Positions 2,561 through 48,100 of a stretch of DNA of 64,000 nucleotides are shown in pieces. The DNA comes from Sipunculus nudus (taxonomy: Eukaryota; Annelida; Sipuncula; Golfingiida; Sipunculidae): the NCBI GenBank assembly GCA_026874595.1, contig CM049306.1, forward strand, positions 62,936,019 to 63,000,018. Reading direction: 5' to 3'. The first letter of the stretch is position 1. Each line of letters begins with the position of its first letter. A model generated the notes under the pieces. That model was not told the DNA's origin, ran no database searches, and worked only from the letters and a program-made list of their open reading frames with translations. A program made the translations under genes and the position numbers.

Positions 2561-5500
2561 ATGCTGGATAATAAGCCATGCCAGGTGTGTACAGACTCAG
2601 CCTGGTCCATGGTGACCCCCTTCAACTTCTCTCTCAGGCCGGGCTTGATCTATAGGTACAAATCGTACCGCCTGACACAAGCGGTACAACGTGGTACGGC
2701 CACAAGCGGTACAACGTACTACATGCTGGATAATAAGCCATGCCAGGTGTGTACAGACTCAGCCTGGTCCATGGTGACCCCCTTCAACTTCTCTCTCAGG
2801 CCGGGCTTGATCTATAGGTACAAATCGTACCGCCTGACACAAGCGGTACAACGTGGTACGGCCACAAGCGGTACAACGTACTACATGCTGGATAATAAGC
2901 CATGCCAGGTGTGTACAGACTCAGCCTGGTCCATGGTGACCCCCTTCAACTTCTCTCTCAGGCCGGGCTTGATCTATAGGTACAAATCGTACCGCCTGAC
3001 ACAAGCGGTACAACGTGGTACGGCCACAAGCGGTACAACGTACTACATGCTGGATAATAAGCCATGCCAGGTGTGTACAGACTCAGCCTGGTCCATGGTG
3101 ACCCCCTTCAACTTCTCTCTCAGGCCGGGCTTGATCTATAGGTACAAATCGTACCGCCTGACACAAGCGGTACAACGTGGTACGGCCACAAGCGGTACAA
3201 CGTACTACATGCTGGATAATAAGCCATGCCAGGTGTGTACAGACTCAGCCTGGTCCATGGTGACCCCCTTCAACTTCTCTCTCAGGCCGGGCTTGATCTA
3301 TAGGTACAAATCGTACCGCCTGACACAAGCGGTACAACGTGGTACGGCCACAAGCGGTACAACGTACTACATGCTGGATAATAAGCCATGCCAGGTGTGT
3401 ACAGACTCAGCCTGGTCCATGGTGACCCCCTTCAACTTCTCTCTCAGGCCGGGCTTGATCTATAGGTACAAATCGTACCGCCTGACACAAGCGGTACAAT
3501 GTGGTACGGCCACAAGCGGTACAACGTACTACATGCTGGATAATAAGCCATGCCAGGTGTGTACAGACTCAGCCTGGTCCATGGTGACCCCCTTCAACTT
3601 CTCTCTCAGGCCGGGCTTGATCTATAGGTACAAATCGTACTGCCTGACACAAGCGGTACAACGTGGTACGGCCACAAGCGGTACAACGTACTACATGCTG
3701 GATAATAAGCCATGCCAGGTGTGTACAGACTCAGCCTGGTCCATGGTGACCCCCTTCAACTTCTCTCTCAGGCCGGGCTTGATCTATAGGTACAAATCGT
3801 ACTGCCTGACACAAGCGGTACAACGTGGTACGGCCACAAGCGGTACAACGTACTACATGCTGGATAATAAGCCATGCCAGGTGTGTACAGACTCAGCCTG
3901 GTCCATGGTGACCCCCTTCAACTTCTCTCTCAGGCCGGGCTTGATCTATAGGTACAAATCGTACCGCCTGACACAAGCGGTACAACGTGGTACGGCCACA
4001 AGCGGTACAACGTACTACATGCTGGATAATAAGCCATGCCAGGTGTGTACAGACTCAGCCTGGTCCATGGTGACCCCCTTCAACTTCTCTCTCAGGCCGG
4101 GCTTGATCTATAGGTACAAATCGTACCGCCTGACACAAGCGGTACAAACTGGTACGGCCACAAGCGGTACAACGTACTACATGCTGGATAATAAGCCATG
4201 CCAGGTGTGTACAGACTCAGCCTGGTCCATGGTGACCCCCTTCAACTTCTCTCTCAGGCCGGGCTTGATCTATAGGTACAAATCGTACCGCCTGACACAA
4301 GCGGTACAACGTGGTACGGCCACAAGCGGTACAACGTACTACATGCTGGATAATAAGCCATGCCAGGTGTGTACAGACTCAGCCTGGTCCATGGTGACCC
4401 CCTTCAACTTCTCTCTCAGGCCGGGCTTGATCTATAGGTACAAATCGTACCGCCTGACACAAGCGGTACAACGTGGTACGGCCACAAGCGGTACAACGTA
4501 CTACATGCTGGATAATAAGCCATGCCAGGTGTGTACAGACTCAGCCTGGTCCATGGTGACCCCCTTCAACTTCTCTCTCAGGCCGGGCTTGATCTATAGG
4601 TACAAATCGTACCGCCTGACACAAGCGGTACAACGTGGTACGGCCACAAGCGGTACAACGTACTACATGCTGGATAATAAGCCATGCCAGGTGTGTACAG
4701 ACTCAGCCTGGTCCATGGTGACCCCCTTCAACTTCTCTCTCAGGCCGGGCTTGATCTATAGGTAAAAATCGTACCGCCTGACACAAGCGGTACAACGTGG
4801 TACGGCCACAAGCGGTACAACGTACTACATGCTGGATAATAAGCCATGCCAGGTGTGTACAGACTCAGCCTGGTCCATGGTGACCCCCTTCAACTTCTCT
4901 CTCAGGCCGGGCTTGATCTATAGGTACAAATCGTACCGCCTGACACAAGCGGTACAACGTGGTACGGCCACAAGCGGTACAACGTACTACATGCTGGATA
5001 ATAAGCCATGCCAGGTGTGTACAGACTCAGCCTGGTCCATGGTGACCCCCTTCAACTTCTCTCTCAGGCCGGGCTTGATCTATAGGTACAAATCGTACCG
5101 CCTGACACAAGCTGTACAACGTGGTACGGCCACAAGCGGTACAACGTACTACATGCTGGATAATAAGCCATGCCATGTGTGTACAGACTCAGCCTGGTCC
5201 ATGGTGACCCCCTTCAACTTCTCTCTCAGGCCGGGCTTGATCTATAGGTACAAATCGTACCGCCTGACACAAGCGGTACAACGTGGTACGGCCACAAGCG
5301 GTACAACGTACTACATGCTGGATAATAAGCCATGCCAGGTGTGTACAGACTCAGCCTGGTCCATGGTGACCCCCTTCAACTTCTCTCTCAGGCCGGGCTT
5401 GATCTATAGGTACAAATCGTACCGCCTGACACAAGCGGTACAACGTGGTACGGCCACAAGCGGTACAACGTACTACATGCTGGATAATAAGCCAAGCCAG

Positions 5501-6658
5501 GTGTGTACAGACTCAGCCTGGTCCATGGTGACCCCCTTCAACTTCTCTCTCAGGCCGGGCTTGATCTATAGGTACAAATCGTACTGCCTGACACAAGCGG
5601 TACAACGTGGTACGGCCACAAGCGGTACAACGTACTACATGCTGGATAATAAGCCATGCCAGGTGTGTACAGACTCAGCCTGGTCCATGGTGACCCCCTT
5701 CAACTTCTCTCTCAGGCCGGGCTTGATCTATAGGTACAAATCGTACCGCCTGACACAAGCGGAACAACGTGGTACGGCCACAAGCGGTACAACGTACTAC
5801 ATGCTGGATAATAAGCCATGCCAGGTGTGTACAGACTCAGCCTGGTCCATGGTGACCCCCTTCAACTTCTCTCTCAGGCCGGGCTTGATCTATAGGTACA
5901 AATCGTACCGCCTAACACAAGCGGTACAACGTGGTACGGCCACAAGCGGTACAACGTACTACATGCTGGATAATAAGCCATGCCAGGTGTGTACAGACTC
6001 AGCCTGGTCCATGGTGACCCCCTTCAACTTCTCTCTCAGGCCGGGCTTGATCTATAGGTACAAATCGTACCGCCTGACACAAGCGGTACAACGTGGTACG
6101 GCCACAAGCGGTACAACGTACTACATGCTGGATAATAAGCCATGCCAGGTGTGTACAGACTCAGCCTGGTCCATGGTGACCCCCTTCAACTTCTCTCTCA
6201 GGCCGGGCTTGATCTATAGGTACAAATCGTACCGCCTGACACAAGCGGTACAACGTGGTACGGCCACAAGCGGTACAACGTACTACATGCTGGATAATAA
6301 GCCATGCCAGGTGTGTACAGACTCAGCCTGGTCCATGGTGACCCCCTTCAACTTCTCTCTCAGGCCGGGCTTGATCTATAGGTACAAATCGTACCGCCTG
6401 ACACAAGCGGTACAACGTGGTACGGCCACAAGCGGTACAACGTACTACATGCTGGATAATAAGCCATGCCAGGTGTGTACAGACTCAGCCTGGTCCATGG
6501 TGACCCCCTTCAACTTCTCTCTCAGGCCGGGCTTGATCTATAGGTACAAATCGTACCGCCTGACACAAGCGGTACAACGTGGTACGGCCACAAGCGGTAC
6601 AACGTACTACATGCTGGATAATAAGCCATGCCAGGTGTGTACAGACTCAGCCTGATCC

Positions 6659-9450
6659 ATGGTGACCCCCTTCAACTTCTCTCTCAGGCCGGGCTTGATC
6701 TATAGGTACAAATCGTACCGCCTGACACAAGCGGTACAACGTGGTACGGCCACAAGCGGTACAACGTACTACATGCTGGATAATAAGCCATGCCAGGTGT
6801 GTACAGACTCAGCCTGGTCCATGGTGACCCCCTTCAACTTCTCTCTCAGGCCGGGCTTGATCTATAGGTACAAATCGTACCGCCTGACACAAGCGGTACA
6901 ACGTGATACGGCCACAAGCGGTACAACGTACTACATGCTGGATAATAAGCTATGCCAGGTGTGTACAGACGCAGCCTGGTCCATGGTGACCCCCTTCAAC
7001 TTCTCTCTCAGGCCGGGCTTGATCTATAGGTACAAATCGTACCGCCTGACACAAGCGGTACAACGTGGTACGGCCACAAGCGGTACAACGTACTACATGC
7101 TGGATAATAAGCCATGCCAGGTGTGTACAGACTCAGCCTGGTCCATGGTGACCCCCTTCAACTTCTCTCTCAGGCCGGGCTTGATCTATAGGTACAAATC
7201 GTACCGCCTGACACAAGCGGTACAACGTGGTACGGCCACAAGCGGTACAACGTACTACATGCTGGATAATAAGCCATGCCAGGTGTGTACAGACTCAGCC
7301 TGGTCCATGGTGACCCCCTTCAACTTCTCTCTCAGGCCGGGCTTGATCTATAGGTACAAATCGTACCGCCTGACACAAGCGGTACAACGTGGTACGGCCA
7401 CAAGCGGTACAACGTACTACATGCTGGATAATAAGCCATGCCAGGTGTGTACAGACTCAGCCTGATCCATGGTGACCCCCTTCAACTTCTCTCTCAGGCC
7501 GGGCTTGATCTATAGGTACAAATCGTACCGCCTGACACAAGCGGTACAACGTGGTACGGCCACAAGCGGTACAACGTACTACATGCTGGATAATAAGCCA
7601 TGCCAGGTGTGTACAGACTCAGCCTGGTCCATGGTGACCCCCTTCAACTTCTCCCTCAGGCCGGGCTTGATCTATAGGTACAAATCGTACCGCCTGACAC
7701 AAGCGGTACAACGTGGTACGGCCACAAGCGGTACAACGTACTACATGCTGGATAATAAGCCATGCCAGGTGTGTACAGACTCAGCCTGGTCCATGGTGAC
7801 CCCCTTCAACTTCTCTCTCAGGCCGGGCTTGATCTATAGGTACAAATCGTACCGCCTGACACAAGCGGTACAACGTGGTACGGCCACAAGCGGTACAACG
7901 TACTACATGCTGGATAATAAGCCATGCCAGGTGTGTACAGACTCAGCCTGGTCCATGGTGACCCCCTTCAACTTCTCTCTCAGGCCGGGCTTGATCTATA
8001 GGTACAAATCGTACCGCCTGACACAAGCGGTACAACGTGGTACGGCCACAAGCGGTACAACGTACTACATGCTGGATAATAAGCCATGCCAGGTGTGTAC
8101 AGACTCAGCCTGGTCCATGGTGACCCCCTTCAACTTCTCTCTCAGGCCGGGCTTGATCTATAGGTACAAATCGTACCGCCTGACACAAGCGGTACAACGT
8201 GGTACGGCCACAAGCGGTACAACGTACTACATGCTGGATAATAAGCCATGCCAGGTGTGTACAGACTCAGCCTGGTCCATGGTGACCCCCTTCAACTTCT
8301 CTCTCAGGCCGGGCTTGATCTATAGGTACAAATCGTACCGCCTGACACAAGCGGTACAACGTGGTACGGCCACAAGCGGTACAACGTACTACATGCTGGA
8401 TAATAAGCCATGCCAGGTGTGTACAGACTCAGCCTGATCCATGGTGACCCCCTTCAACTTCTCTCTCAGGCCGGGCTTGATCTATAGGTACAAATCGTAC
8501 CGCCTGACACAAGCGGTACAACGTGGTACGGCCACAAGCGGTACAACGTACTACATGCTGGATAATAAGCCATGCCAGGTGTGTACAGACTCAGCCTGGT
8601 CCATGGTGACCCCCTTCAACTTCTCTCTCAGGCCGGGCTTGATCTATAGGTACAAATCGTACCGCCTGACACAAGCGGTACAACGTGATACGGCCACAAG
8701 CGGTACAACGTACTACATGCTGGATAATAAGCTATGCCAGGTGTGTACAGACGCAGCCTGGTCCATGGTGACCCCCTTCAACTTCTCTCTCAGGCCGGGC
8801 TTGATCTATAGGTACAAATCGTACCGCCTGACACAAGCGGTACAACGTGGTACGGCCACAAGCGGTACAACGTACTACATGCTGGATAATAAGCCATGCC
8901 AGGTGTGTACAGACTCAGCCTGGTCCATGGTGACCCCCTTCAACTTCTCTCTCAGGCCGGGCTTGATCTATAGGTACAAATCGTACCGCCTGACACAAGC
9001 GGTACAACGTGGTACGGCCACAAGCGGTACAACGTACTACATGCTGGATAATAAGCCATGCCAGGTGTGTACAGACTCAGCCTGGTCCATGGTGACCCCC
9101 TTCAACTTCTCTCTCAGGCCGGGCTTGATCTATAGGTACAAATCGTACCGCCTGACACAAGCGGTACAACGTGGTACGGCCACAAGCGGTACAACGTACT
9201 ACATGCTGGATAATAAGCCATGCCAGGTGTGTACAGACTCAGCCTGATCCATGGTGACCCCCTTCAACTTCTCTCTCAGGCCGGGCTTGATCTATAGGTA
9301 CAAATCGTACCGCCTGACACAAGCGGTACAACGTGGTACGGCCACAAGCGGTACAACGTACTACATGCTGGATAATAAGCCATGCCAGGTGTGTACAGAC
9401 TCAGCCTGGTCCATGGTGACCCCCTTCAACTTCTCCCTCAGGCCGGGCTT
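6659..9450. repeat. 11-monomer higher-order repeat (1,782 bp)
   Basis: Within the 162-bp array a rare set of variants (GATACGG, then GCTATGCC, then GACGCAGCC in the next half monomer) occurs at about 6901 and again at about 8683, exactly 1,782 bp or 11 monomers apart. A TCC variant of a TCT codon at 7651 recurs at 9433 with the same offset. The TGA-bearing monomers at 6653/8435 and 7463/9245 repeat at this spacing too, so a block of 11 monomers was duplicated in tandem. Confidence 0.9.
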
Positions 9451-12430
9451 GATCTATAGGTACAAATCGTACCGCCTGACACAAGCGGTACAACGTGGTA
9501 CGGCCACAAGCGGTACAACGTACTACATGCTGGATAATAAGCCATGCCAGGTGTGTACAGACTCAGCCTGCTCCATGGTGACCCCCTTCAACTTCTCTCT
9601 CAGGCCGGGCTTGATCTATAGGTACAAATCGTACCGCCTGACACAAGCGGTACAACGTGGTACGGCCACAAGCGGTACAACGTACTACATGCTGGATAAT
9701 AAGCCATGCCAGGTGTGTACAGACTCAGCCTGGTCCATGGTGACCCCCTTCAACTTCTCTCTCTGGCCGGGCTTGATCTATAGGTACAAATCGTACCGCC
9801 TGACACAAGCGGTACAACATGGTACGGCCACAAGCGGTACAACGTACTACATCCTGGATAATAAGCCATGCCAGGTGTGTACAGACTCAGCCTGGTCCAT
9901 GGTGACCCCCTTCAACTTCTCTCTCAGGCCGGGCTTGATCTATAGGTACAAATCGTACCGCCTGACACAAGCGGTACAACGTGGTACGGCCACAAGCGGT
10001 ACAACGTACTACATGCTGGATAATAAGCCATGCCAGGTGTGTACAGACTCAGCCTGGTCCATGGTGACCCCCTTCAACTTCTCTCTCAGGCCGGGCTTGA
10101 TCTATAGGTACAAATCGTACCGCCTGACACAAGCGGTACAACGTGGTACGGCCACAAGCGGTACAACGCACTACATGCTGGATAATAAGCCATGCCAGGT
10201 GTGTACAGACTCAGCCTGGTCCATGGTGACCCCCTTCAACTTCTCTCTCAGGCCGGGCTTGATCTATAGGTACAAATCGTACCGCCTGACACAAGCGGTA
10301 CAACGTGGTAAGGCCACAAGCGGTACAACGTACTACATGCTGGATAATAAGCCATGCCAGGTGTGTACAGACTCAGCCTGGTCCATGGTGACCCCCTTCA
10401 ACTTCTCTCTCAGGCCGGGCTTGATCTATAGGTACAAATCGTACCGCCTGACACAAGCGGTACAACGTGGTACGGCCACAAGCGGTACAACGTACTACAT
10501 GCTGGATAATAAGCCATGCCAGGTGTGTACAGACTCAGCCTGATCCATGGTGACCCCCTTCAACTTCTCTCTCAGGCCGGGCTTGATCTATAGGTACAAA
10601 TCGTACCGCCTGACACAAGCGGTACAACGTGGTACGGCCACAAGCGGTACAACGTACTACATGCTGGATAATAAGCCATGCCAGGTGTGTACAGACTCAG
10701 CCTGGTCCATGGTGACCCCCTTCAACTTCTCTCTCAGGCCGGGCTTGATCTATAGGTACAAATCGTACCGCCTGACACAAGCGGTACAACGTGGTACGGC
10801 CACAAGCGGTACAACGTACTACATGCTGGATAATAAGCCATGCCAGGTGTGTACAGACTCAGCCTGCTCCATGGTGACCCCCTTCAACTTCTCTCTCAGG
10901 CCGGGCTTGATCTATAGGTACAAATCGTACCGCCTGACACAAGCGGTACAACGTGGTACGGCCACAAGCGGTACAACGTACTACATGCTGGATAATAAGC
11001 CATGCCAGGTGTGTACAGACTCAGCCTGGTCCATGGTGACCCCCTTCAACTTCTCTCTCTGGCCGGGCTTGATCTATAGGTACAAATCGTACCGCCTGAC
11101 ACAAGCGGTACAACATGGTACGGCCACAAGCGGTACAACGTACTACATCCTGGATAATAAGCCATGCCAGGTGTGTACAGACTCAGCCTGGTCCATGGTG
11201 ACCCCCTTCAACTTCTCTCTCAGGCCGGGCTTGATCTATAGGTACAAATCGTACCGCCTGACACAAGCGGTACAACGTGGTACGGCCACAAGCGGTACAA
11301 CGTACTACATGCTGGATAATAAGCCATGCCAGGTGTGTACAGACTCAGCCTGGTCCATGGTGACCCCCTTCAACTTCTCTCTCAGGCCGGGCTTGATCTA
11401 TAGGTACAAATCGTACCGCCTGACACAAGCGGTACAACGTGGTACGGCCACAAGCGGTACAACGCACTACATGCTGGATAATAAGCCATGCCAGGTGTGT
11501 ACAGACTCAGCCTGGTCCATGGTGACCCCCTTCAACTTCTCTCTCAGGCCGGGCTTGATCTATAGGTACAAATCGTACCGCCTGACACAAGCGGTACAAC
11601 GTGGTAAGGCCACAAGCGGTACAACGTACTACATGCTGGATAATAAGCCATGCCAGGTGTGTACAGACTCAGCCTGGTCCATGGTGACCCCCTTCAACTT
11701 CTCTCTCAGGCCGGGCTTGATCTATAGGTACAAATCGTACCGCCTGACACAAGCGGTACAACGTGGTACGGCCACAAGCGGTACAACGTACTACATGCTG
11801 GATAATAAGCCATGCCAGGTGTGTACAGACTCAGCCTGGTCCATGGTGACCCCCTTCAACTTCTCTCTCAGGCCGGGCTTGATCTATAGGTACAAATCGT
11901 ACCGCCTGACACAAGCGGTACAACGTGGTACGGCCACAAGCGGTACAACGTACTACATGCTGGATAATAAGCCATGCCAGGTGTGTACAGACTCAGCCTG
12001 GTCCATGGTGACCCCCTTCAACTTCTCTCTCAGGCCGGGCTTGATCTATAGGTACAAATCGTACCGCCTGACACAAGCGGTACAACGTGGTACGGCCACA
12101 AGCGGTACAACGCACTACATGCTGGATAATAAGCCATGCCAGGTGTGTACAGACTCAGCCTGGTCCATGGTGACCCCCTTCAACTTCTCTCTCAGGCCGG
12201 GCTTGATCTATAGGTACAAATCGTACCGCCTGACACAAGCGGTACAACGTGGTAAGGCCACAAGCGGTACAACGTACTACATGCTGGATAATAAGCCATG
12301 CCAGGTGTGTACAGACTCAGCCTGGTCCATGGTGACCCCCTTCAACTTCTCTCTCAGGCCGGGCTTGATCTATAGGTACAAATCGTACCGCCTGACACAA
12401 GCGGTACAACGTGGTACGGCCACAAGCGGT
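9251..12430. repeat. 8-monomer and 4-monomer higher-order repeats
   Basis: Five private variants in fixed order mark 9251-10546: TGCTCC, CTCTGG, CAACATGG with ATCCTGG, CGCACTAC, and GGTAAGG. They recur at 10547-11842, 1,296 bp or 8 monomers later. The last two recur once more about 648 bp (4 monomers) further on, near 12111 and 12255. This is nested local amplification. Confidence 0.9.
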
Positions 12431-15400
12431 ACAACGTACTACATGCTGGATAATAAGCCATGCCAGGTGTGTACAGACTCATCCTGGTCCATGGTGACCC
12501 CCTTCAACTTCTCTCTCAGGCCGGGCTTGATCTATAGGTACAAATCGTACCGCCTGACACAAGCGGTACAACGTGGTACGGCCACAAGCGGTACAACGTA
12601 CTACATGCTGGATAATAAGCCATGCCAGGTGTGTACAGACTCAGCCTGGTCCATGGTGACCCCCTTCAACTTCTCTCTCAGGCCGGGCTTGATCTATAGG
12701 TACAAATCGTACCGCCTGACACAAGCGGTACAACGTGGTACGGCCACAAGCGGTACAACGTACTACATGCTGGATAATAAGCCATGCCAGGTGTGTACAG
12801 ACTCAGCCTGGTCCATGGTGACCCCCTTCAACTTCTCTCTCAGGCCGGGCTTGATCTATAGGTACAAATCGTACCGCCTGACACAAGCGGTACAACGTGG
12901 TACGGCCACAAGCGGTACAACGTACTACATGCTGGATAATAAGCCATGCCAGGTGTGTACAGACTCAGCCTGGTCCATGGTGACCCCCTTCAACTTCTCT
13001 CTCAGGCCGGGCTTGATCTATAGGTACAAATCGTACCGCCTGACACAAGCGGTACAACGTGGTACGGCCACAAGCGGTACAACGTACTACATGCTGGATA
13101 ATAAGCCATGCCAGCTGTGTACAGACTCAGCCTGGTCCAGGGTGACCCCCTTCAACTTCTCTCTCAGGCCGGGCTTGATCTATAGGTACAAATCGTACCG
13201 CCTGACACAAGCGGTACAACGTGGTACGGCCACAAGCGGTACAACGTACTACATGCTGGATAATAAGCCATGCCAGGTGTGTACAGACTCAGCCTGGTCC
13301 ATGGTGACCCCCTTCAACTTCTCTCTCAGGCCGGGCTTGATCTATAGGTACAAATCGTACCGCCTGACACAAGCGGTACAACGTGGTACGGCCAAAAGCG
13401 GTACAACGTACTACATCCTGGATAATAAGCCATGCCAGGTGTGTACAGACTCAGCCTGGTCCATGGTGACCCCCTTCAACTTCTCTCTCAGGCCGGGCTT
13501 GATCTATAGGTACAAATCGTACCGCCTGACACAAGCGGTACAACGTGGTACGGCCACAAGCGGTACAACGTACTACATGCTGGATAATAAGCCATGCCAG
13601 GTGTGTACAGACTCAGCCTGGTCCATGGTGACCCCCTTCAACTTCTCTCTCAGGCCGGGCTTGATCTATAGGTACAAATCGTACCGCCTGACACAAGCGG
13701 TACAACGTGGTACGGCCACAAGCGGTACAACGTACTACATGCTGGATAATAAGCCATGCCAGGTGTGTACAGACTCAGCCTGGTCCATGGTGACCCCCTT
13801 CAACTTCTCTCTCAGGCCGGGCTTGATCTATAGGTACAAATCGTACCGCCTGACACAAGCGGTACAACGTGGTACGGCCACAAGCGGTACAACGTACTAC
13901 ATGCTGGATAATAAGCCATGCCAGGTGTGTACAGACTCAGCCTGGTCCATGGTGACCCCCTTCAACTTCTCTCTCAGGCCGGGCTTGATCTATAGGTACA
14001 AATCGTACCGCCTGACACAAGCGGTACAACGTGGTACGGCCACTAGTGGTACAACGTACTACATGCTGGATAATAAGCCATGCCAGGTGTGTACAGACTC
14101 AGCCTGGTCCATGGTGACCCCCTTCAACTTCTCTCTCAGGCCGGGCTTGATCTATAGGTACAAATCGTACCGCCTGACACAAGCGGTACAACGTGGTACG
14201 GCCACAAGCGGTACAACGTACTACATGCTGGATAATAAGCCATGCCAGGTGTGTACAGACTCAGCCTGGTCCATGGTGACCCCCTTCAACTTCTCTCTCA
14301 GGCCGGGCTTGATCTATAGGTACAAATCGTACCGCCTGACACAAGCGGTACAACGTGGTACGGCCACAAGCGGTACAACGTACTACATGCTGGATAATAA
14401 GCCATGCCAGGTGTGTACAGACTCAGCCTGGTCCATGGTGACCCCCTTCAACTTCTCTCTCAGGCCGGGCTTGATCTATAGGTACAAATCGTACCGCCTG
14501 ACACAAGCGGTACAACGTGGTACGGCCGCAAGCGGTACAACGTACTACATGCTGGATAATAAGCCATGCCAGGTGTGTACAGACTCAGCCTGGTCCATGG
14601 TGACCCCCTTCAACTTCTCTCTCAGGCCGGGCTTGATCTATAGGTACAAATCGTACCGCCTGACACAAGCGGTACAACGTGGTACGGCTACAAGCGGTAC
14701 AACGTACTACATGCTGGATAATAAGCCATGCCAGGTGTGTACAGACTCAGCCTGGTCCATGGTGACCCCCTTCAACTTCTCTCTGAGGCCGGGCTTGATC
14801 TATAGGTACAAATCGTACCGCCTGACACAAGCGGTACAACGTGGTACGGCCACAAGCGGTACAACGTACTACATGCTGGATAATAAGCCATGCCAGGTGT
14901 GTACAGACTCAGCCTGGTCCATGGTGACCCCCTTCAACTTCTCTCTCAGGCCGGGCTTGATCTATAGGTACAAATCGTACCGCCTGACACAAGCGGTACA
15001 ACGTGGTACGGCCACAAGCGGTACAACGTACTACATGCTGGATAATAAGCCATGCCAGGTGTGTACAGACTCAGCCTGGTCCATGGTGACCCCCTTCAAC
15101 TTCTCTCTCAGGCCGGGCTTGATCTATAGGTACAAATCGTACCGCCTGACACAAGCGGTACAACGTGGTACGGCCACAAGCGGTACAACGTACTACATGC
15201 TGGATAATAAGCCATGCCAGGTGTGTACAGACTCAGCCTGGTCCATGGTGACCCCCTTCAACTTCTCTCTCAGGCCGGGCTTGATCTATAGGTACAAATC
15301 GTACCGCCTGACACAAGCGGTACAACGTGGTACGGCCACAAGCGGTACAACGTACTACATGCTGGATAATAAGCCATGCCAGGTGTGTACAGACTCAGCC

Positions 15401-16389
15401 TGGTCCATGGTGACCCCCTTCAACTTCTCTCTCAGGCCGGGCTTGATCTATAGGTACAAATCGTACCGCCTGACACAAGCGGTACAACGTGGTACGGCCA
15501 CAAGCGGTACAACGTACTACATGCTGGATAATAAGCCATGCCAGGTGTGTACAGACTCAGCCTGGTCCATGGTGACCCCCTTCAACTTCTCTCTCAGGCC
15601 GGGCTTGATCTATAGGTACAAATCGTACCGCCTGACACAAGCGGTACAACGTGGTACGGCCACAAGCGGTACAACGTACTACATGCTGGATAATAAGCCA
15701 TGCCAGGTGTGTACAGACTCAGCCTGGTCCATGGTGACCCCCTTCAACTTCTCTCTCAGGCCGGGCTTGATCTATAGGTACAAATCGTACCGCCTGACAC
15801 AAGCGGTACAACGTGGTACGGCCACAAGCGGTACAACGTACTACATGCTGGATAATAAGCCATGCCAGGTGTGTACAGACTCAGCCTGGTCCATGGTGAC
15901 CCCCTTCAACTTCTCTCTCAGGCCGGGCTTGATCTATAGGTACAAATCGTACCGCCTGACACAAGCGGTACAACGTGGTACGGCCACAAGCGGTACAACG
16001 TACTACATGCTGGATAATAAGCCATGCCAGGTGTGTACAGACTCAGCCTGGTCCATGGTGACCCCCTTCAACTTCTCTCTCAGGCCGGGCTTGATCTATA
16101 GGTACAAATCGTACCGCCTGACACAAGCGGTACAACGTGGTACGGCCACAAGCGGTACAACGTACTACATGCTGGATAATAAGCCATGCCAGGTGTGTAC
16201 AGACTCAGCCTGGTCCATGGTGACCCCCTTCAACTTCTCTCTCAGGCCGGGCTTGATCTATAGGTACAAATCGTACCGCCTGACACAAGCGGTACAACGT
16301 GGTACGGCCACAAGCGGTACAACGTACTACATGCTGGATAATAAGCCATGCCAGGTGTGTACAGACTCAGCCTGGTCCATGGTGACCCC

Positions 16390-19300
16390 CTTCAACTTCT
16401 ATCTCAGGCCGGGCTTGATCTATAGGTACAAATCGTACCGCCTGACACAAGCGGTACAACGTGGTACGGCCACAAGCGGTACAACGTACTACATGCTGGA
16501 TAATAAGCCATGCCAGGTGTGTACAGACTCAGCCTGGTCCATGGTGACCCCCTTCAACTTCTCTCTCAGGCCGGGCTTGATCTATAGGTACAAATCGTAC
16601 CGCCTGACACAAGCGGTACAACGTGGTACGGCCACAAGCGGTACAACGTACTACATCCTGGATAATAAGCCATGCCAGGTGTATACAGACTCAGCCTGGT
16701 CCATGGTGACCCCCTTCAACTTCTCTCTCAGGCCGGGCTTGATCTATAGGTACAAATCGTACCGCCTGACACAAGTGGTACAACGTGGTACGGCCACAAG
16801 CGGTACAACGTACTACATGCTGGATAATAAGCCATGCCAGGTGTGTACAGACTCAGCTAGCCTGGTCCATGGTGACCCCCTTCAACTTCTCTCTCAGGCC
16901 GGGCTTGATCTATAGGTACAAATCATACCGCCTGACACAAGCGGTACAACGTGATACGGCCACAAGCGGTACAACGTACTACATGCTGGATAATAAGCTA
17001 TGCCAGGTGTGTACAGCCGCAGCCTGGTCCATGGTGACCCCCTTCAACTTCTCTCTCAGGCCGGGCTTGATCTAAAGGTACAAATCGTACCGCCTGACAC
17101 AAGCGGTACAACGTGGTACGGCCACAAGCGGTACAACGTACTACATGCTGGATAATAAGCCATGCCAGGTGTGTACAGACTCAGCCTGGTCCATGGTGAC
17201 CCCCTTCAACTTCTCTCTCAGGCCGGGCTTGATCTATAGGTACAAATCGTACCGCCTGACACAAGCGGTACAACGTGGTACGGCCACAAGCGGTACAACG
17301 TACTACATGCTGGATAATAAGCCATGCCAGGTGTGTACAGACTCAGCCTGGTCCATGGTGACCCCCTTCAACTTCTCTCTCAGGCCGGGCTTGATCTATA
17401 GGTACAAATCGTACCGCCTGACACAAGCGGTACAACGTGGTACGGCCACAAGCGGTACAACGTACTACATGCTGGATAATAAGCCATGCCAGGTGTGTAC
17501 AGACTCAGCCTGATCCATGGTGACCCCCTTCAACTTCTCTCTCAGGCCGGGCTTGATCTATAGGTACAAATCGTACCGCCTGACACAAGCGGTACAACGT
17601 GGTACGGCCACAAGCGGTACAACGTACTACATGCTGGATAATAAGCCATGCCAGGTGTGTACAGACTCAGCCTGGTCCATGGTGACCCCCTTCAACTTCT
17701 CCCTCAGGCCGGGCTTGATCTATAGGTACAAATCATACCGCCTGACACAAGCGGTACAACGTGGTACGGCCACAAGCGGTACAACGTACTACATGCTGGA
17801 TAATAAGCCATGCCAGGTGTGTACAGACTCAGCCTGCTCCATGGTGACCCCCTTCAACTTCTCTCTCAGGCCGGGCTTGATCTATAGGTACAAATCGTAC
17901 CGCCTGACACAAGCGGTACAACGTGGTACGGCCACAAGCGGTACAACGTACTACATGCTGGATAATAAGCCATGCCAGGTGTGTACAGACTCAGCCTGCT
18001 CCATGATGACCCCCTTCAACTTCTCTCTCAGGCCGGGCTTGATCTATAGGTACAAATCGTACCGCCTGACACAAGCGGTACAACGTGGTACGGCCACAAG
18101 CGGTACAACGTACTACATGCTGGATAATAAGCCATGCCAGGTGTGTACAGACTCAGCCTGGTCCATGGTGACCCCCTTCAACTTCTCTCTCTGGCCGGGC
18201 TTGATCTATAGGTACAAATCGTACCGCCTGACACAAGCGGTACAACGTGGTACGGCCACAAGCGGTACAACGTACTACATGCTGGATAATAAGCCATGCC
18301 AGGTGTGTACAGACTCAGCCTGGTCCATGGTGACCCCCTTCAACTTCTCTCTCAGGCCGGGCTTGATCTATAGGTACAAATCGTACCGCCTGACACAAGC
18401 GGTACAACGTGGTACGGCCACAAGCGGTACAACGTACTACATGCTGGATAATAAGCCATGCCAGGTGTGTACAGACTCAGCCTGGTCCATGGTGACCCCC
18501 TTCAACTTCTCTCTCAGGCCGGGCTTGATCTATAGGTACAAATCGTACCGCCTGACACAAGCGGTACAACGTGGTACGGCCACAAGCGGTACAACGTACT
18601 ACATGCTGGATAATAAGCCATGCCAGGTGTGTACAGACTCAGCCTGGTCCATGGTGACCCCCTTCAACTTCTCTCTCAGGCCGGGCTTGATCTATAGGTA
18701 CAAATCGTACCGCCTGACACAAGCGGTACAACGTGGTACGGCCACAAGCGGTACAACGTACTACATGCTGGATAATAAGCCATGCCAGGTGTGTACAGAC
18801 TCAGCCTGGTCCATGGTGACCCCCTTCAACTTCTATCTCAGGCCGGGCTTGATCTATAGGTACAAATCGTACCGCCTGACACAAGCGGTACAACGTGGTA
18901 CGGCCACAAGCGGTACAACGTACTACATGCTGGATAATAAGCCATGCCAGGTGTGTACAGACTCAGCCTGGTCCATGGTGACCCCCTTCAACTTCTCTCT
19001 CAGGCCGGGCTTGATCTATAGGTACAAATCGTACCGCCTGACACAAGCGGTACAACGTGGTACGGCCACAAGCGGTACAACGTACTACATCCTGGATAAT
19101 AAGCCATGCCAGGTGTATACAGACTCAGCCTGGTCCATGGTGACCCCCTTCAACTTCTCTCTCAGGCCGGGCTTGATCTATAGGTACAAATCGTACCGCC
19201 TGACACAAGTGGTACAACGTGGTACGGCCACAAGCGGTACAACGTACTACATTCTGGATAATAAGCCATGCCAGGTGTGTACAGACTCAGCTAGCCTGGT

Positions 19301-19950
19301 CCATGGTGACCCCCTTCAACTTCTCTCTCAGGCCGGGCTTGATCTATAGGTACAAATCGTACCGCCTGACACAAGCGGTACAACGTGATACGGCCACAAG
19401 CGGTACAACGTACTACATGCTGGATAATAAGCTATGCCAGGTGTGTACAGCCGCAGCCTGGTCCATGGTGACCCCCTTCAACTTCTCTCTCAGGCCGGGC
19501 TTGATCTATAGGTACAAATCGTACCGCCTGACACAAGCGGTACAACGTGGTACGGCCACAAGCGGTACAACGTACTACATGCTGGATAATAAGCCATGCC
19601 AGGTGTGTACAGACTCAGCCTGGTCCATGGTGACCCCCTTCAACTTCTCTCTCAGGCCGGGCTTGATCTATAGGTACAAATCGTACCGCCTGACACAAGC
19701 GGTACAACGTGGTACGGCCACAAGCGGTACAACGTACTACATGCTGGATAATAAGCCATGCCAGGTGTGTACAGACTCAGCCTGGTCCATGGTGACCCCC
19801 TTCAACTTCTCTCTCAGGCCGGGCTTGATCTATAGGTACAAATCGTACCGCCTGACACAAGCGGTACAACGTGGTACGGCCACAAGCGGTACAACGTACT
19901 ACATGCTGGATAATAAGCCATGCCAGGTGTGTACAGACTCAGCCTGATCC
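16390..19950. repeat. 15-monomer plus 4-bp higher-order repeat (2,434 bp)
   Basis: Three markers occur twice with an offset of exactly 2,434 bp: a TCT-to-TAT variant (16401 and 18835), a GTGTATACAG variant shortly after, and the 4-bp insertion that turns CAGCCTGG into CAGCTAGCCTGG (16857 and 19291). 2,434 is 15 x 162 + 4. The inserted 4 bp therefore predates the duplication and tags the duplicated block. Confidence 0.92.
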
Positions 19951-22866
19951 ATGGTGACCCCCTTCAACTTCTCTCTCAGGCCGGGCTTGATCTATAGGTA
20001 CAAATCGTACCGCCTGACACAAGCGGTACAACGTGGTACGGCCACAAGCGGTACAACGTACTACATGCTGGATAATAAGCCATGCCAGGTGTGTACAGAC
20101 TCAGCCTGGTCCATGGTGACCCCCTTCAACTTCTCCCTCAGGCCGGGCTTGATCTATAGGTACAAATCGTACCGCCTGACACAAGCGGTACAACGTGGTA
20201 CGGCCACAAGCGGTACAACGTACTACATGCTGGATAATAAGCCATGCCAGGTGTGTACAGACTCAGCCTGCTCCATGGTGACCCCCTTCAACTTCTCTCT
20301 CAGGCCGGGCTTGATCTATAGGTACAAATCGTACCGCCTGACACAAGCGGTACAACGTGGTACGGCCACAAGCGGTACAACGTACTACATGCTGGATAAT
20401 AAGCCATGCCAGGTGTGTACAGACTCAGCCTGCTCCATGGTGACCCCCTTCAACTTCTCTCTCAGGCCGGGCTTGATCTATAGGTACAAATCGTACCGCC
20501 TGACACAAGCGGTACAACGTGGTACGGCCACAAGCGGTACAACGTACTACATGCTGGATAATAAGCCATGCCAGGTGTGTACAGACTCAGCCTGGTCCAT
20601 GGTGACCCCCTTCAACTTCTCTCTCTGGCCGGGCTTGATCTATAGGTACAAATCGTACCGCCTGACACAAGCGGTACAACGTGGTACGGCCACAAGCGGT
20701 ACAACGTACTACATCCTGGATAATAAGCCATGCCAGGTGTGTACAGACTCAGCCTGGTCCATGGTGACCCCCTTCAACTTCTCTCTCAGGCCGGGCTTGA
20801 TCTATAGGTACAAATCGTACCGCCTGACACAAGCGGTACAACGTGGTACGGCCACAAGCGGTACAACGTACTACATGCTGGATAATAAGCCATGCCAGGT
20901 GTGTACAGACTCAGCCTGGTCCATGGTGACCCCCTTCAACTTCTCTCTCAGGCCGGGCTTGATCTATAGGTACAAATCGTACCGCCTGACACAAGCGGTA
21001 CAACGTGGTACGGCCACAAGCGGTACAACGCACTACATGCTGGATAATAAGCCATGCCAGGTGTGTACAGACTCAGCCTGGTCCATGGTGACCCCCTTCA
21101 ACTTCTCTCTCAGGCCGGGCTTGATCTATAGGTACAAATCGTACCGCCTGACACAAGCGGTACAACGTGGTACGGCCACAAGCGGTACAACGTACTACAT
21201 GCTGGATAATAAGCCATGCCAGGTGTGTACAGACTCAGCCTGGTCCATGGTGACCCCCTTCAACTTCTCTCTCAGGCCGGGCTTGATCTATAGGTACAAA
21301 TCGTACCGCCTGACACAAGCGGTACAACGTGGTACGGCCACAAGCGGTACAACGTACTACATGCTGGATAATAAGCCATGCCAGGTGTGTACAGACTCAG
21401 CCTGATCCATGGTGACCCCCTTCAACTTCTCTCTCAGGCCGGGCTTGATCTATAGGTACAAATCGTACCGCCTGACACAAGCGGTACAACGTGGTACGGC
21501 CACAAGCGGTACAACGTACTACATGCTGGATAATAAGCCATGCCAGGTGTGTACAGACTCAGCCTGGTCCATGGTGACCCCCTTCAACTTCTCCCTCAGG
21601 CCGGGCTTGATCTATAGGTACAAATCGTACCGCCTGACACAAGCGGTACAACGTGGTACGGCCACAAACGGTACAACGTACTACATGCTGGATAATAAGC
21701 CATGCCAGGTGTGTACAGACTCAGCCTGCTCCATGGTGACCCCCTTCAACTTCTCTCTCAGGCCGGGCTTGATCTATAGGTACAAATCGTACCGCCTGAC
21801 ACAAGCGGTACAACGTGGTACGGCCACAAGCGGTACAACGTACTACATGCTGGATAATAAGCCATGCCAGGTGTGTACAGACTCAGCCTGCTCCATGGTG
21901 ACCCCCTTCAACTTCTCTCTCAGGCCGGGCTTGATCTATAGGTACAAATCGTACCGCCTGACACAAGCGGTACAACGTGGTACGGCCACAAGCGGTACAA
22001 CGTACTACATGCTGGATAATAAGCCATGCCAGGTGTGTACAGACTCAGCCTGGTCCATGGTGACCCCCTTCAACTTCTCTCTCTGGCCGGGCTTGATCTA
22101 TAGGTACAAATCGTACCGCCTGACACAAGCGGTACAACGTGGTACGGCCACAAGCGGTACAACGTACTACATCCTGGATAATAAGCCATGCCAGGTGTGT
22201 ACAGACTCAGCCTGGTCCATGGTGACCCCCTTCAACTTCTCTCTCAGGCCGGGCTTGATCTATAGGTACAAATCGTACCGCCTGACACAAGCGGTACAAC
22301 GTGGTACGGCCACAAGCGGTACAACGTACTACATGCTGGATAATAAGCCATGCCAGGTGTGTACAGACTCAGCCTGGTCCATGGTGACCCCCTTCAACTT
22401 CTCTCTCAGGCCGGGCTTGATCTATAGGTACAAATCGTACCGCCTGACACAAGCGGTGCAACGTGGTACGGCCACAAGCGGTACAACGCACTACATGCTG
22501 GATAATAAGCCATGCCAGGTGTGTACAGACTCAGCCTGGTCCATGGTGACCCCCTTCAACTTCTCTCTCAGGCCGGGCTTGATCTATAGGTACAAATCGT
22601 ACCGCCTGACACAAGCGGTACAACGTGGTAAGGCCACAAGCGGTACAACGTACTACATGCTGGATAATAAGCCATGCCAGGTGTGTACAGACTCAGCCTG
22701 GTCCATGGTGACCCCCTTCAACTTCTCTCTCAGGCCGGGCTTGATCTATAGGTACAAATCGTACCGCCTGACACAAGCGGTACAACGTGGTACGGCCACA
22801 AGCGGTACAACGTACTACATCCTGGATAATAAGCCATGCCAGGTGTGTACAGACTCAGCCTGGTCC
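19951..22866. repeat. 9-monomer higher-order repeat (1,458 bp)
   Basis: The ordered markers TCTCCC, TGCTCC twice, CTCTGG, ATCCTGG and CGCACTAC appear in 19951-21408 and again in 21409-22866, offset by 1,458 bp or 9 monomers. The same block is an expanded relative of the 8-monomer repeat at 9251, with one extra TGCTCC monomer. Confidence 0.88.
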
Positions 22867-25800
22867 ATGGTGACCCCCTTCAACTTCTCTCTCAGGCCGG
22901 GCTTGATCTATAGGTACAAATCGTACCGCCTGACACAAGCGGTACAACGTGGTACGGCCACAAGCGGTACAACGTACTACATGCTGGATAATAAGCCATG
23001 CCAGGTGTGTACAGACTCAGCCTGGTCCATGGTGACCCCCTTCAACTTCTCTCTCAGGCCGGGCTTGATCTATAGGTACAAATCGTACCGCCTGACACAA
23101 GCGGTACAACGTGGTACGGCCACAAGCGGTACAACGTTCTACATGCTGGATAATAAGCCATGCCAGGTGTGTACAGACTCAGCCTGGTCCATGGTGACCC
23201 CCTTCAACTTCTCTCTCAGGCCGGGCTTGATCTATAGGTACAAATCGTACCGCCTGACACAAGCGGTACAACGTGGTACGGCCACAAGCGGTACAACGTA
23301 CTACATGCTGGATAATAAGCCATGCCAGGTGTGTACAGACTCAGCCTGGTCCATGGTGACCCCCTTCAACTTCTCTCTCAGGCCGGGCTTGATCTATAGG
23401 TACAAATCGTACCGCCTGACACAAGCGGTACAACGTGGTACGGCCACAAGCGGTACAACGTACTACATGCTGGATAATAAGCCATGCCAGCTGTGTACAG
23501 ACTCAGCCTGGTCCAGGGTGACCCCCTTCAACTTCTCTCTTAGGCCGGGCTTGATCTATAGGTACAAATCGTACCGCCTGACACAAGCGGTACAACGTGG
23601 TACGGCCACAAGCGGTACAACGTACTACATGCTGGATAATAAGCCATGCCAGGTGTGTACAGACTCAGCCTGGTCCATGGTGACCCCCTTCAACTTCTCT
23701 CTCAGGCCGGGCTTGATCTATAGGTACAAATCGTACCGCCTGACACAAGCGGTACAACGTGGTACGGCCAAAAGCGGTACAACGTACTACATGCTGGATA
23801 ATAAGCCATGCCAGGTGTGTACAGACTCAGCCTGGTCCATGGTGACCCCCTTCAACTTCTCTCTCAGGCCGGGCTTGATCTATAGGTACAAATCGTACCG
23901 CCTGACACAAGCGGTACAACGTGGTACGGCCACAAGCGGTACAACGTACTACATGCTGGATAATAAGCCATGCCAGGTGTGTACAGACTCAGCCTGGTCC
24001 ATGGTGACCCCCTTCAACTTCTCTCTCAGGCCGGGCTTGATCTATAGGTACAAATCGTACCGCCTGACACAAGCGGTACAACGTGGTACGGCCACAAGCG
24101 GTACAACGTACTACATGCTGGATAATAAGCCATGCCAGGTGTGTACAGACTCAGCCTGGTCCATGGTGACCCCCTTCAACTTCTCTCTCAGGCCGGGCTT
24201 GATCTATAGGTACAAATCGTACCGCCTGACACAAGCGGTACAACGTGGTACGGCCACAAGCGGTACAACGTACTACATGCTGGATAATAAGCCATGCCAG
24301 GTGTGTACAGACTCAGCCTGGTCCATGGTGACCCCCTTCAACTTCTCTCTCAGGCCGGGCTTGATCTATAGGTACAAATCGTACCGCCTGACACAAGCGG
24401 TACAACGTGGTACGGCCACTAGTGGTACAACGTACTACATGCTGGATAATAAGCCATGCCAGGTGTGTACAGACTCAGCCTGGTCCATGGTGACCCCCTT
24501 CAACTTCTCTCTCAGGCCGGGCTTGATCTATAGGTACAAATCGTACCGCCTGACACAAGCGGTACAACGTGGTACGGCCACAAGCGGTACAACGTACTAC
24601 ATGCTGGATAATAAGCCATGCCAGGTGTGTACAGACTCAGCCTGGTCCATGGTGACCCCCTTCAACTTCTCTCTCAGGCCGGGCTTGATCTATAGGTACA
24701 AATCGTACCGCCTGACACAAGCGGTACAACGTGGTACGGCCACAAGCGGTACAACGTACTACATGCTGGATAATAAGCCATGCCAGGTGTGTACAGACTC
24801 AGCCTGGTCCATGGTGACCCCCTTCAACTTCTCTCTCAGGCCGGGCTTGATCTATAGGTACAAATCGTACCGCCTGACACAAGCGGTACAACGTGGTACG
24901 GCAACAAGCGGTACAACGTACTACATGCTGGATAATAAGCCATGCCAGGTGTGTACAGACTCAGCCTGGTCCATGGTGACCCCCTTCAACTTCTCTCTCA
25001 GGCCGGGCTTGATCTATAGGTACAAATCGTACCGCCTGACACAAGCGGTACAACGTGGTACGGCCGCAAGCGGTACAACGTACTACATGCTGGATAATAA
25101 GCCATGCCAGGTGTGTACAGACTCAGCCTGGTCCATGGTGACCCCCTTCAACTTCTCTCTCAGGCCGGGCTTGATCTATAGGTACAAATCGTACCGCCTG
25201 ACACAAGCGGTACAACGTGGTACGGCCACAAGCGGTACAACGTACTACATGCTGGATAATAAGCCATGCCAGGTGTGTACAGACTCAGCCTGGTCCATGG
25301 TGACCCCCTTCAACTTCTCTCTCAGGCCGGGCTTGATCTATAGGTACAAATCGTACCGCCTGACACAAGCGGTACAACGTGATACGGACACAAGCGGTAC
25401 AACGTACTACATGCTGGATAATAAGCCATGCCAGGTGTGTACAGACTCAGCCTGGTCCATGGTGACCACCTTCAACTTCTCTCTCAGGCCGGGCTTGATC
25501 TATAGGTACAAATCGTACCGCCTGACACAAGCGGTACAACGTGGTACGGCCACAAGCGGTACAACGTGCTACGTTCAGAGTCTACCTCACAGTTGGTTGG
25601 ACAGAAGTGTTCAAATAAATTTAGGTTGATAAGTATTGTGTCGCATGAAGATATTGATTACCATATATACATGCAGATGCTTAGACGCCATTGGTACAAA
25701 ATTACTGCCGATTGATTAGTATGAACGAAATAATGGGCACTTAATGTAAATAACATGAGATATTGTTTCCTCTCCGCGCGGGATCTTGGAACACACCTTC

Positions 25801-26838
25801 ATGCACACATTCCTGTCCTTACACTGTTGGGTTCGAAGGCAGACATTTATGCCCTAACTGCTGCATGTACACCTTCAAAACCCTCCATTAAACTGGAAAC
25901 AACACAAGCAGTTACTTTGTCATAAGATTTGGGTCTGAAACTGTAAAGAAAGGGCTTGATAAATATAAAGAATTCATGACATATAGATACTCCGGTCAAA
26001 TAACCACTTCTATAGAAACACACAAGCGTTATAGTCAAGCATTCCGGTGTCTGACTTGCATTGCATTATATTTAAGAATGAACTGGTGCAACTTTTGCAC
26101 TGTGAATTTTTTTAAAACTTGATTTCAACGCCATCTCTTTATGCCACATACGGTTCCATAAATATTAATGAGAGTTGGTGTGTTCAGGATTGCGTTAGTT
26201 ATGTTGTGAACAAACACACAAACACTCACAAAACACATAAACTTGAATGAACGCATACCCACCTGGCGAAGGCAATTATACCATAATCTAATATTAAACC
26301 AGTACAGAAGCCCTTACTGTGGGTAATGCAACAGTATGCATTTGCGAATGAAAAATTGTTTATGGGAATAAACCGACTGACTTACATATAAGTGAAAGTT
26401 TGGCTGAAAGTCATTTAATTATTTGATTTAGAAAAACAAAGCTTTAGAAAAGATATCAAACTGCATCCATTGCTTATACAAATTCGTAAAGTTGCAAAAA
26501 GACAAACCAAACAAACATTCAACCTTGTTACGAACAACGATAAAATAATTGGTTATAAGAACTAACATAACATGACATATTTATGACTAGCAAGTTGTTG
26601 GAAGGTGCTCGAAAGTAGTTTGTCCTCCCTTGATATTAGACTTGAACCAGTCGATTTCATATACAATTACAACCATTTGTAGCCATCTGTAATTTTGCAA
26701 TACATTTGCAAAAATGGAAGCCCGGTAATTCTTCCTTATGGTAATGTGTACTGTAGCTACCTACTCATGCATTAAAGCTGTTTTTTATAGTATAATTATT
26801 TGACTTACACACAGTCTAACTATACACACCTATAAACA

Positions 26839-32375: not shown

Positions 32376-32379
32376 GCTG

Positions 32380-33269
32380 TAGTAATAGGAATGACTCAGA
32401 CACGCCGTGTATTAATAGGAATGACTCAGACAGGCCGTGTAGTAATAGGGGTGACTCAGACAGGCCATGTAGTAATAGGAGTGACTCAGACAGGCCATGT
32501 ATTAATAGGAATGACTCAGACAGGCCATGTATTAACAGGAATAACTCAGACACGCCGTGTATTAATAGGAATGACTCAGACAGGCCGTGTAGTAATAGGA
32601 GTGACTCAGACAGGCCGTGTAGTAATAGGAGTGACTCAGACAGGCCGTGTAGTAATAGGAATGACTCAGACACGCCATGTATTAATAGGAATGACTCAGA
32701 CACGCCATGTATTAATAGGAATGACTCAGAGAGGCCGTGTAGTAATAGGAATGACTCAGACACGCCATGTATTAATAGGAATGACTCAGACACGCCATGT
32801 ATTAATAGGAATGACTCAGACACGCCATGTATTAATAGGAATGACTCAGACAGACCGTGTAGTAATAGGAATGACTCAGACAGGCCATGTCGTAATAGGA
32901 ATGACTCAGACACGCCATGTATTAATAGGAATGACTCAGACACGCCATGTATTAATAGGAATGACTCAGACACGCCATGTATTAAAAGGAATGACTCAGA
33001 CAGGCCGTGTAGTAATAGGAATGACTCAGACACGCCATGTATTAATGGGAATGACTTAGACACGTCATGTATTAATAGGAATGACTCAGACATGACGTGT
33101 AGTAATAGAAATGACTCAGACACGCCCTGTATTAACTGGAAAGACTCAGACAGGCCATGTATTAATAGGAATGACTCAGACACGCCATGTATTAATAGGA
33201 ATGACTCAGACAGGCCGTGTAGTAATAGGAATGACTCAGACAGGCCATGTCGTAATAGGAATGACTAAG
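32380..33269. repeat. 30-bp minisatellite, about 30 copies
   Basis: The unit is 30 bp, built around ATGACTCAGACA, then C/GGCC, then TGTA.TAATAGGA. There are about 29-30 copies in phase and no indels. Two main haplotypes exist: CAGGCCGTGTAGTAAT and CACGCCATGTATTAAT, whose three or four differences mostly travel together. Since 30 is divisible by 3 and few stops occur, three frames stay open (a Cys/Asp/Asn/Arg-rich one on plus, a second on plus, and a Ser/Leu/His-rich one on minus). There is no unique start or flanking coding sequence, so none is called as a gene. Confidence 0.95.
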
Positions 33270-33360
33270 AGGGGTCATGCAGCTTGAAAATTAGGTAAAT
33301 CTATTTCCTTTGACTACGTATATAACCCTCAATTTTAGGAGTACACGTACGACCTCGGAA

Positions 33361-45194: not shown

Positions 45195-48100
45195 TATGAG
45201 AGTTTACGAGAGTAACCTATGACTGTTACTGGGTTGAAGTGTATCATATCTTATTTCAGCTCTCATATTTAGGATGAGATGTTAAGATGGTAACCCAGAA
45301 CTGTAACTGGATATCAGAGTATGGGAGGTTTCGATGGTAACCCAGAACTGTTTATTCATTGTAGTGGATGAGAGGTTACGATAGTAACCCACAATTGTGA
45401 CTGGATTAATTGTAGAGGATGAGAGGTTTCGATGGAAACCCAGAACTGTTTATTCATTGTAGTGGATGAGAGATCACGATGGTAACCCACAATTGTGACT
45501 GGATTAATTGTAGAGGATGAGAGATTTTGATGGAAACCCAGAACTGTTTATTCATTGTAGTCGATGAGAGGTTACGATAGTAACCCACAATTGTGACTGG
45601 ATTAATTGTAGAGGATGAGAGGTTTCGATGGAAACCCAGAACTGTTTATTCATTGTAGTGGATGAGAGATCACGATGGTAACCCACAATTGTGACTGGAT
45701 TAATTGTAGAGGATGAGAGGTTTCGATGGAAACCCAGAACTGTTTATTCATTGTAGTGGATGAGAGGTTACGATAGTAACCCACAATTGTGACTGGATTA
45801 ATTGTAGAGGATGAGAGGTTTCGATGGAAACCCAGAACTGTTTATTCATTGTAGTGGATGAGAGATCACGATGGTAACCCACAATTGTGACTGGATTAAT
45901 TGTAGAGGATGAGAGGTTTCGATGGAAACCCAGAACTGTTTATTCATTGTAGTGGATGAGAGGTTACGATAGTAACCCACAATTGTGACTGGATTAATTG
46001 TGGAGGATGAGAGGTTTCGATGGAAACCCAGAACTGTTTATTCATTGTAGTGGATGAGAGGTTACGATAGTAACCCACAATTGTGACTGGATTAATTGTA
46101 GAGGATGAGAGGTTTCGATGGAAACCCAGAACTGTTTATTCATTGTAGTGGATGAGAGATCACGATGGTAACCCACAATTGTGACTGGATTAATTGTAGA
46201 GGATGAGAGGTTTCGATGGAAACCCAGAACTGTTTATTCATTGTAGTGGATGAGAGGTTACGATAGTAACCCACAATTGTGACTGGATTAATTGTGGAGG
46301 ATGAGAGATTTTGATGGAAACCCAGAACTGTTTATTCATTGTAGTGGATGAGAGGTTACGATAGTAACCCACAATTGTGACTGGATTAATTGTGGAGGAT
46401 GAGAGATTTTGATGGAAACCCAGAACTGTTTATTCATTGTAGTGGATGAGAGGTTACGATAGTAACCAAGAATTGTGACTGGATTAATTGTGGAGGATAT
46501 CAGAGGTTTCGATGGTAACCCAGAACTTTTTATTCATTGTAGTGGATGAGAGGTTACGATAGTAACCCACAATTGTGACTGGATTAATTGTGGAGGATGA
46601 GAGGTTTCGATGGTAACCCAGAACTGTTTATTCATTGTAGTGGATGAGAGGTTACGATAGTAACCAAGAATTGTGACTGGATTAATTGTGGAGGATATCA
46701 GAGGTTTCGATGGTAACCCAGAACTGTTTATTCATTGTAGTGGATGAGAGGTTACGATAGTAACCCACAATTGTGACTGGATTAATTGTGGAGGATGAGA
46801 GGTTTCGATGGTAACCCAGAACTTTTTATTCATTGTAGTGGATGAGAGGTTACGATAGTAACCCACAATTGTGACTGGATTAATTGTGGAGGATGAGAGA
46901 TTTTGATGGAAACCCAGAACTGTTTATTCATTGTAGTGGATGAGAGGTTACGATAGTAACCAAGAATTGTGACTGGATTAATTGTGGAGGATATCAGAGG
47001 TTTCGATGGTAACCCAGAACTTTTTATTCATTGTAGTGGATGAGAGGTTACGATAGTAACCCACAATTATGACTGGATTAATTGTAGAGGATGAGAGATT
47101 TTGATGGAAACCCAGAACTGTTTATTCATTGTAGTGGATGAGAGATCACGATGGTAACCCACAATTGTGACTGGATTAATTGTAGAGGATGAGAGGTTTC
47201 GATGGAAACCCAGAACTGTTTATTCATTGTAGTGGATGAGAGGTTACGATAGTAACCCACAATTGTGACTGGATTAATTGTGGAGGATGAGAGATTTTGA
47301 TGGAAACCCAGAACTGTTTATTCATTGTAGTGGATGAGAGGTTACGATAGTAACCCACAATTGTGACTGGATTAATTGTGGAGGATGAGAGATTTTGATG
47401 GAAACCCAGAACTGTTTATTCATTGTAGTGGATGAGAGGTTACGATAGTAACCAAGAATTGTGACTGGATTAATTGTGGAGGATATCAGAGGTTTCGATG
47501 GTAACCCAGAACTTTTTATTCATTGTAGTGGATGAGAGGTTACGATAGTAACCCACAATTGTGACTGGATTAATTGTGGAGGATGAGAGGTTTCGATGGA
47601 AACCCAGAACTGTTTATTCATTGTAGTGGATGAGAGGTTACGATAGTAACCCACAATTGTGACTGGATTAATTGTAGAGGATGAGAGGTTTCGATGGAAA
47701 CCCAGAACTGTTTATTCATTGTAGTGGATGAGAGATCACGATGGTAACCCACAATTGTGACTGGATTAATTGTAGAGGATGAGAGGTTTCGATGGAAACC
47801 CAGAACTGTTTATTCATTGTAGTGGATGAGAGGTTACGATAGTAACCCACAATTGTGACTGGATTAATTGTGGAGGATGAGAGATTTTGATGGAAACCCA
47901 GAACTGTTTATTCATTGTAGTGGATGAGAGGTTACGATAGTAACCCACAATTGTGACTGGATTAATTGTGGAGGATGAGAGATTTTGATGGAAACCCAGA
48001 ACTGTTTATTCATTGTAGTGGATGAGAGGTTACGATAGTAACCAAGAATTGTGACTGGATTAATTGTGGAGGATATCAGAGGTTTTGATGGTAACCCAGA

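Follow-up and report, generated by a model that had tools for sequence, protein, structure and literature searches.

A satellite array found at one locus in Sipunculus nudus, with a unit chimeric between the end of a MITE-like element and DNA found only there

The wide spread of most satellites has erased the traces of how they arose. The array described here, from an assembly of Sipunculus nudus, is transposon-derived satellite DNA, a known kind, in a well-preserved form. One locus preserves its parental element, the boundaries of its units and the order in which blocks were duplicated, and there ideas on the birth and growth of satellites (by in-place exchange or through circles, coupled to transposition or not) become testable.

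The Tetris / TIR-220 satellite of Drosophila virilis is a tandem array from the terminal repeat of a non-autonomous DNA transposon, with up to 66 copies (PMC4079207). Our array likewise derives from a transposon end; however, the Tetris / TIR-220 repeats pre-existed inside the terminal repeats of the element, at many places (PMC4079207), whereas the unit described here straddles the outer edge of its element and host DNA and was found at one locus. Pearl-family MITEs of bivalves also combine a MITE with tandem repeats, but these are described as internal arrays of up to six units (PMC5139131). CgiSat22 of the oyster Crassostrea gigas is a single-locus satellite (PMC8268682), to which the array is likened by description. 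BIV160, a family with two conserved sequence segments, is reported from several species (PMC5139131); the earlier note had compared the monomer to it in size (about 160 bp), and 162 bp does fit, the length of BIV160 being taken from its name. The likeness of the array to BIV160, of the BIV160/Cg170 satellites, is one of unit length compared in this way, and length alone says little. The CenH3-associated sequences of oysters are described as non-uniform and dispersed (PMC7348941). A literature search for a satellite unit straddling a MITE and its flank found no paper, which is weak evidence of absence; a unit straddling the element edge, with its place of origin intact, is the less usual aspect here.

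The window, i.e., the whole 64,000-bp stretch of DNA analysed (C1:62,936,019-63,000,018), belongs to an assembly of 1,426,538,692 bases (1.43 Gb) in 153 contigs. Tandem Repeats Finder reports positions 2560-25572 as a single array with a period of 162, 142.0 copies and 99% matches, and a unit-by-unit walk resolves it into 142 head-to-tail units, 140 of 162 bp and two of 166 bp. The same 4-bp insertion occurs in the units starting at 16817 and 19251, and no other length change was met among the 142 units walked.

2561-25572, + strand: the whole satellite array with its 142 units, two of them 166 bp and the others 162 bp long; Tandem Repeats Finder, unit-by-unit walk
16817-16982, + strand: unit 89, with the 4-bp insertion; unit walk, variant analysis
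19251-19416, + strand: unit 104, with the same 4-bp insertion as unit 89; unit walk, variant analysis

These results confirm the earlier note's count of 142 monomers of 162 bp with two copies of one 4-bp insertion and nothing else altering the length. Its statement that most monomers carry zero to two substitutions also holds: among the 140 units of 162 bp, 64 are identical to the consensus (64 of all 142), 56 differ at one position, 15 at two, 4 at three and 1 at four, while both insertion units carry two substitutions each on top of the insertion. Divergence from the consensus averages 0.46% (106 differences in 23,004 aligned bases), with 46 distinct substitutions and 42 distinct units. With 142 near-identical head-to-tail units at a mean pairwise distance of 0.9%, the locus has the make-up of satellite DNA. 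This low distance, together with the block duplications described below, one pair of which is identical over 1,782 bp, supports the recent and possibly continuing amplification proposed earlier.

In the assembly, the unit was found nowhere else. A 34-bp piece of it, searched through the complete assembly with up to three mismatches, matches 142 times in the forward and 0 times in the reverse orientation, and a 39-bp piece under the same threshold 140 and 0 times, the lower count arising because the insertion breaks this piece in two units; reversed-pattern controls of both pieces give 0 matches each. The matches listed individually (the first places) all lie inside the array, and the totals equal what the array itself supplies. 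A translated piece of the 92-bp part (see below) with its flank finds 144 places at E ≤ 10, each located within the array or at the first of its units; they correspond to 140 whole units plus two units each split in two by the insertion. Since the array itself accounts for the whole-assembly counts, the 162-bp unit therefore forms a one-locus array, a statement that covers the assembly as it stands, in which some sequence, such as collapsed repeats, may be missing. A search of plasmid records gave no match, and an exact 29-bp pattern gave 0 stretches in prokaryote species genomes.

Each unit is a chimera in which 92 bp found only here are followed by 70 bp of terminal sequence of a dispersed MITE-like element, as seen in the first unit and its flank:

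2412-2560, strand not assigned: 5′ flanking DNA, for which the search listed no relatives at E ≤ 1 (6 of 7 candidates scored); genome DNA search
2561-2652, + strand: first unit, positions 1-92, DNA without another copy found in the genome; genome DNA, translated and pattern searches
2653-2722, + strand: first unit, positions 93-162, end of the MITE-like element; genome search, comparison with family loci

Of the 34 candidates that a two-unit DNA query returned from the genome, 33 received a score, and each of these has its match inside unit positions 86-140, with 81-91% identity. The array is absent from the rows of this search, and the unscored 34th candidate may be the array. Positions 86-140 belong to the element part or its edge, and the matching places to dispersed elements; 70 of the 162 bp are shared with a dispersed element, as expected of a transposon-derived satellite. 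For positions 1-92 of the first unit, a translated search of the assembly found no second place at the protein level; a gene origin of the 92-bp part, prompted by an open stretch on each strand, was rejected on this ground.

The element continues beyond the array: its next 217 bp lie directly after the last unit, extending that unit's last 70 bp, and the order of element parts agrees in the family copies aligned.

25503-25789, + strand: copy of the MITE-like element, truncated, the last unit containing its outer end and the 3′ flank of the array being its inner part; genome searches, family alignments
25526-25573, + strand: internal 25-bp duplication of the element end (1.9 copies), which the unit consensus also contains; Tandem Repeats Finder, unit walk

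A 3′-flank query listed 49 places; in 25 of these, spread over 11 contigs, the match falls in the first 217 bases of the query, at 72-87% identity. With at least 25 places on 11 contigs and 10 of 11 measured copies spanning 479-542 bp, the element is short, dispersed, non-coding and present in many copies, as MITEs are; several ends behind these lengths were extrapolated, and the remaining inspected copy has an apparent span of 1,325 bp. An inverted second end is seen in several copies. The motif TAGGT begins 8 of 22 element ends and both ends in 1 of the 11 inspected copies (again with several ends extrapolated). We call the element MITE-like and regard any target duplication as putative. Its second half was not found in the window with four family copies as queries, the copy being truncated near 25789. 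The 25-bp internal duplication was not seen in 58 other loci (the end motif was present in 40 of 116 locus-strands).

A second, unrelated dispersed repeat (25795-26180; positions 223-608 of the 3′-flank query) begins where the MITE copy stops. Apparent mini-elements occur at seven loci (L003, L004, L030, L033, L036, L038, L042), where some 158-163 bp are bounded by the element end and, inverted, a 26-bp copy of that end. Such mini-elements of about 162 bp were considered as a source of the unit length, which we treat as a coincidence: in blastn comparisons of the unit with family loci of this kind it is the element part that matches, and at five loci (L003, L038, L040, L042, L045) a stretch from position 82.

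Taken between the outer limits of homology and with the insertions removed, the length of the array is 142 units plus 1 bp. Tandem duplication in place would predict a length of this kind; by chance such agreement would occur in about 3 of 162 cases. At position 158 the last unit carries G and the other 141 units A (140) or T (1); among 12 aligned family copies, G is present in 8, A in 3 and T in 1. Being common to the last unit and most of these family copies, G158 suggests that the last unit may be the founder.

25411-25572, + strand: last unit, with G at position 158, probably the founder; unit walk, variants, family alignment

Later growth is recorded in the order of unit variants, which reveals that the array grew after its founding by copying blocks of units:

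15845-20712, + strand: duplicated block of 15 units, 83-97 (15845-18278) and 98-112 (18279-20712), 5 differences, holding both insertion units; unit-order analysis
5963-9526, + strand: duplicated block of 11 units, 22-32 (5963-7744) and 33-43 (7745-9526), 0 differences in 1,782 bp; unit-order analysis
19579-22494, + strand: duplicated block of 9 units, 106-114 and 115-123, 2 differences; unit-order analysis
9041-11794, + strand: lag-8 duplication, units 41-49 recurring as 49-57; unit-order analysis

These relations score 35.1 (15 units), 19.7 (lag 8), 18.6 (11 units) and 18.2 (9 units); when the order of units was shuffled 200 times, the highest score was 13.7. A fifth relation, at lag 64, scores 12.7, below the shuffle maximum, and is not secure. 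Plain lag counts give lag 15 as the best, with 9 shared units; the highest of 1,000 shuffles also reaches 9 (99th percentile 8).

The MITE flank shares 73-80% identity (20-27% divergence) with 12 relatives, namely those with at least 180 aligned bases among the 58 loci compared, and these relatives share a mean of 80% with one another. As the units are only 0.9% apart, the amplification looks far younger than the insertion by this comparison of divergences. With an apparently old insertion and a young amplification, the growth of the array was probably separate from transposition.

The array shows no sign of coding constraint. Purifying selection was not found in any of the six frames, in all of which the 46 distinct substitutions lie near expectation. 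A protein-coding repeat was accordingly rejected, the open frame on the + strand also being broken by stops in 10 units and by the two frameshifting 4-bp insertions. Three translations of the unit hit no Pfam family above the cut-off, and the window gave 0 Rfam matches at gathering scores. RNA folding of one unit is ordinary (z = −1.13 on the + strand and −0.54 on the − strand). The 70-bp part holds 26 distinct variants and the 92-bp part 20 (p = 0.07), which gives no indication that the element end is constrained. We regard the array as most likely neutral and without its own function.

We propose that an old MITE-like element adjoined single-copy DNA, and that a tandem duplication with one breakpoint 92 bp beyond the edge of the element and the other 70 bp within it would have yielded the chimeric 162-bp unit whose structure is seen today. 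Growth in place would then have proceeded by the multi-unit block copying recorded in the array, possibly through unequal exchange or replication-based repair. It is quite likely that the array is young and non-coding and still occupies the site where it arose, having formed from a MITE edge and neighbouring DNA and grown in place by blocks, most likely without its own function. Points against this reading are the A or T at position 158 in 4 of 12 family copies, the plain lag count equalled by a shuffle, the insecure lag-64 relation, the imperfect genome DNA searches, which missed the array in their rows and left a candidate unscored, and the presence of TAGGT at both ends in only 1 of 11 MITE copies. 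We give roughly even chances to the further reading that this is a satellite at its founding locus, where the parental MITE, the founder unit and DNA that was formerly single-copy are all in place, each step from a single junction duplication to 142 units being readable as a lineage, and an old transposon end having seeded a satellite without transposition; if true, the chimeric element/host unit shows that such an end can do so.

Rolling-circle copying of small DNA circles followed by their return to the chromosome, a route discussed for satellites (PMC4079207), quickly gives long homogeneous arrays. It seems unlikely here: the array is joined in register to the MITE copy that supplies part of its unit and comprises a whole number of units plus 1 bp, neither of which re-insertion elsewhere would give, though homologous re-integration of a circle at its own locus may. 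That the unit number or the whole array is an assembly artefact we find hardly credible; near-identical arrays are hard to assemble, but this one lies inside a 110.9-Mb contig, flanked on both sides, and its variants are ordered in non-identical blocks.

The earlier note had read the homogeneity as typical of an active centromeric or pericentromeric satellite. A unit length near that of a nucleosome and the position at 62.9 Mb in the 110.9-Mb contig also favour this role for its chromosome, which the searches nevertheless do not support and which we regard as very unlikely. The note had itself named a single genomic locus as one part of what would count against it, and the matches in the assembly (142 and 140) are those of a single 23-kb locus in 1.43 Gb, not of a repeat abundant on many chromosomes. 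CENP-B-box-like sites with up to two mismatches number 46 in the window against 98 expected, and one falls in the array (1 of 142 units); moreover, the tandem repeats in the 10 kb flanking the window at either end are all small, reaching about 1 kb at most. Homogeneity alone is no mark of a centromere, and we regard the array, which seems to have grown in place, as a snapshot of the beginnings of satellite DNA, not a centromere repeat.

Several other repeats were observed in and near the window. A 98-bp tandem array of 30.7 copies (45272-48287) and a smaller array with a 47/145-bp period (51879-52396) pair at about 73-78% identity in blastn. A 30-bp repeat of 29.8 copies (32378-33270) is open from stop to stop over 306 aa on the + strand and 300 aa on the − strand, its coding capacity being only putative. 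At L091, positions 4276-5247 hold a 322-bp tandem repeat in three copies with TA runs. Two open stretches at 60204-61208 match Pfam RVT_1 (reverse transcriptase; E = 8.9e-8 and 2e-16) and belong to a broken LINE-like element.
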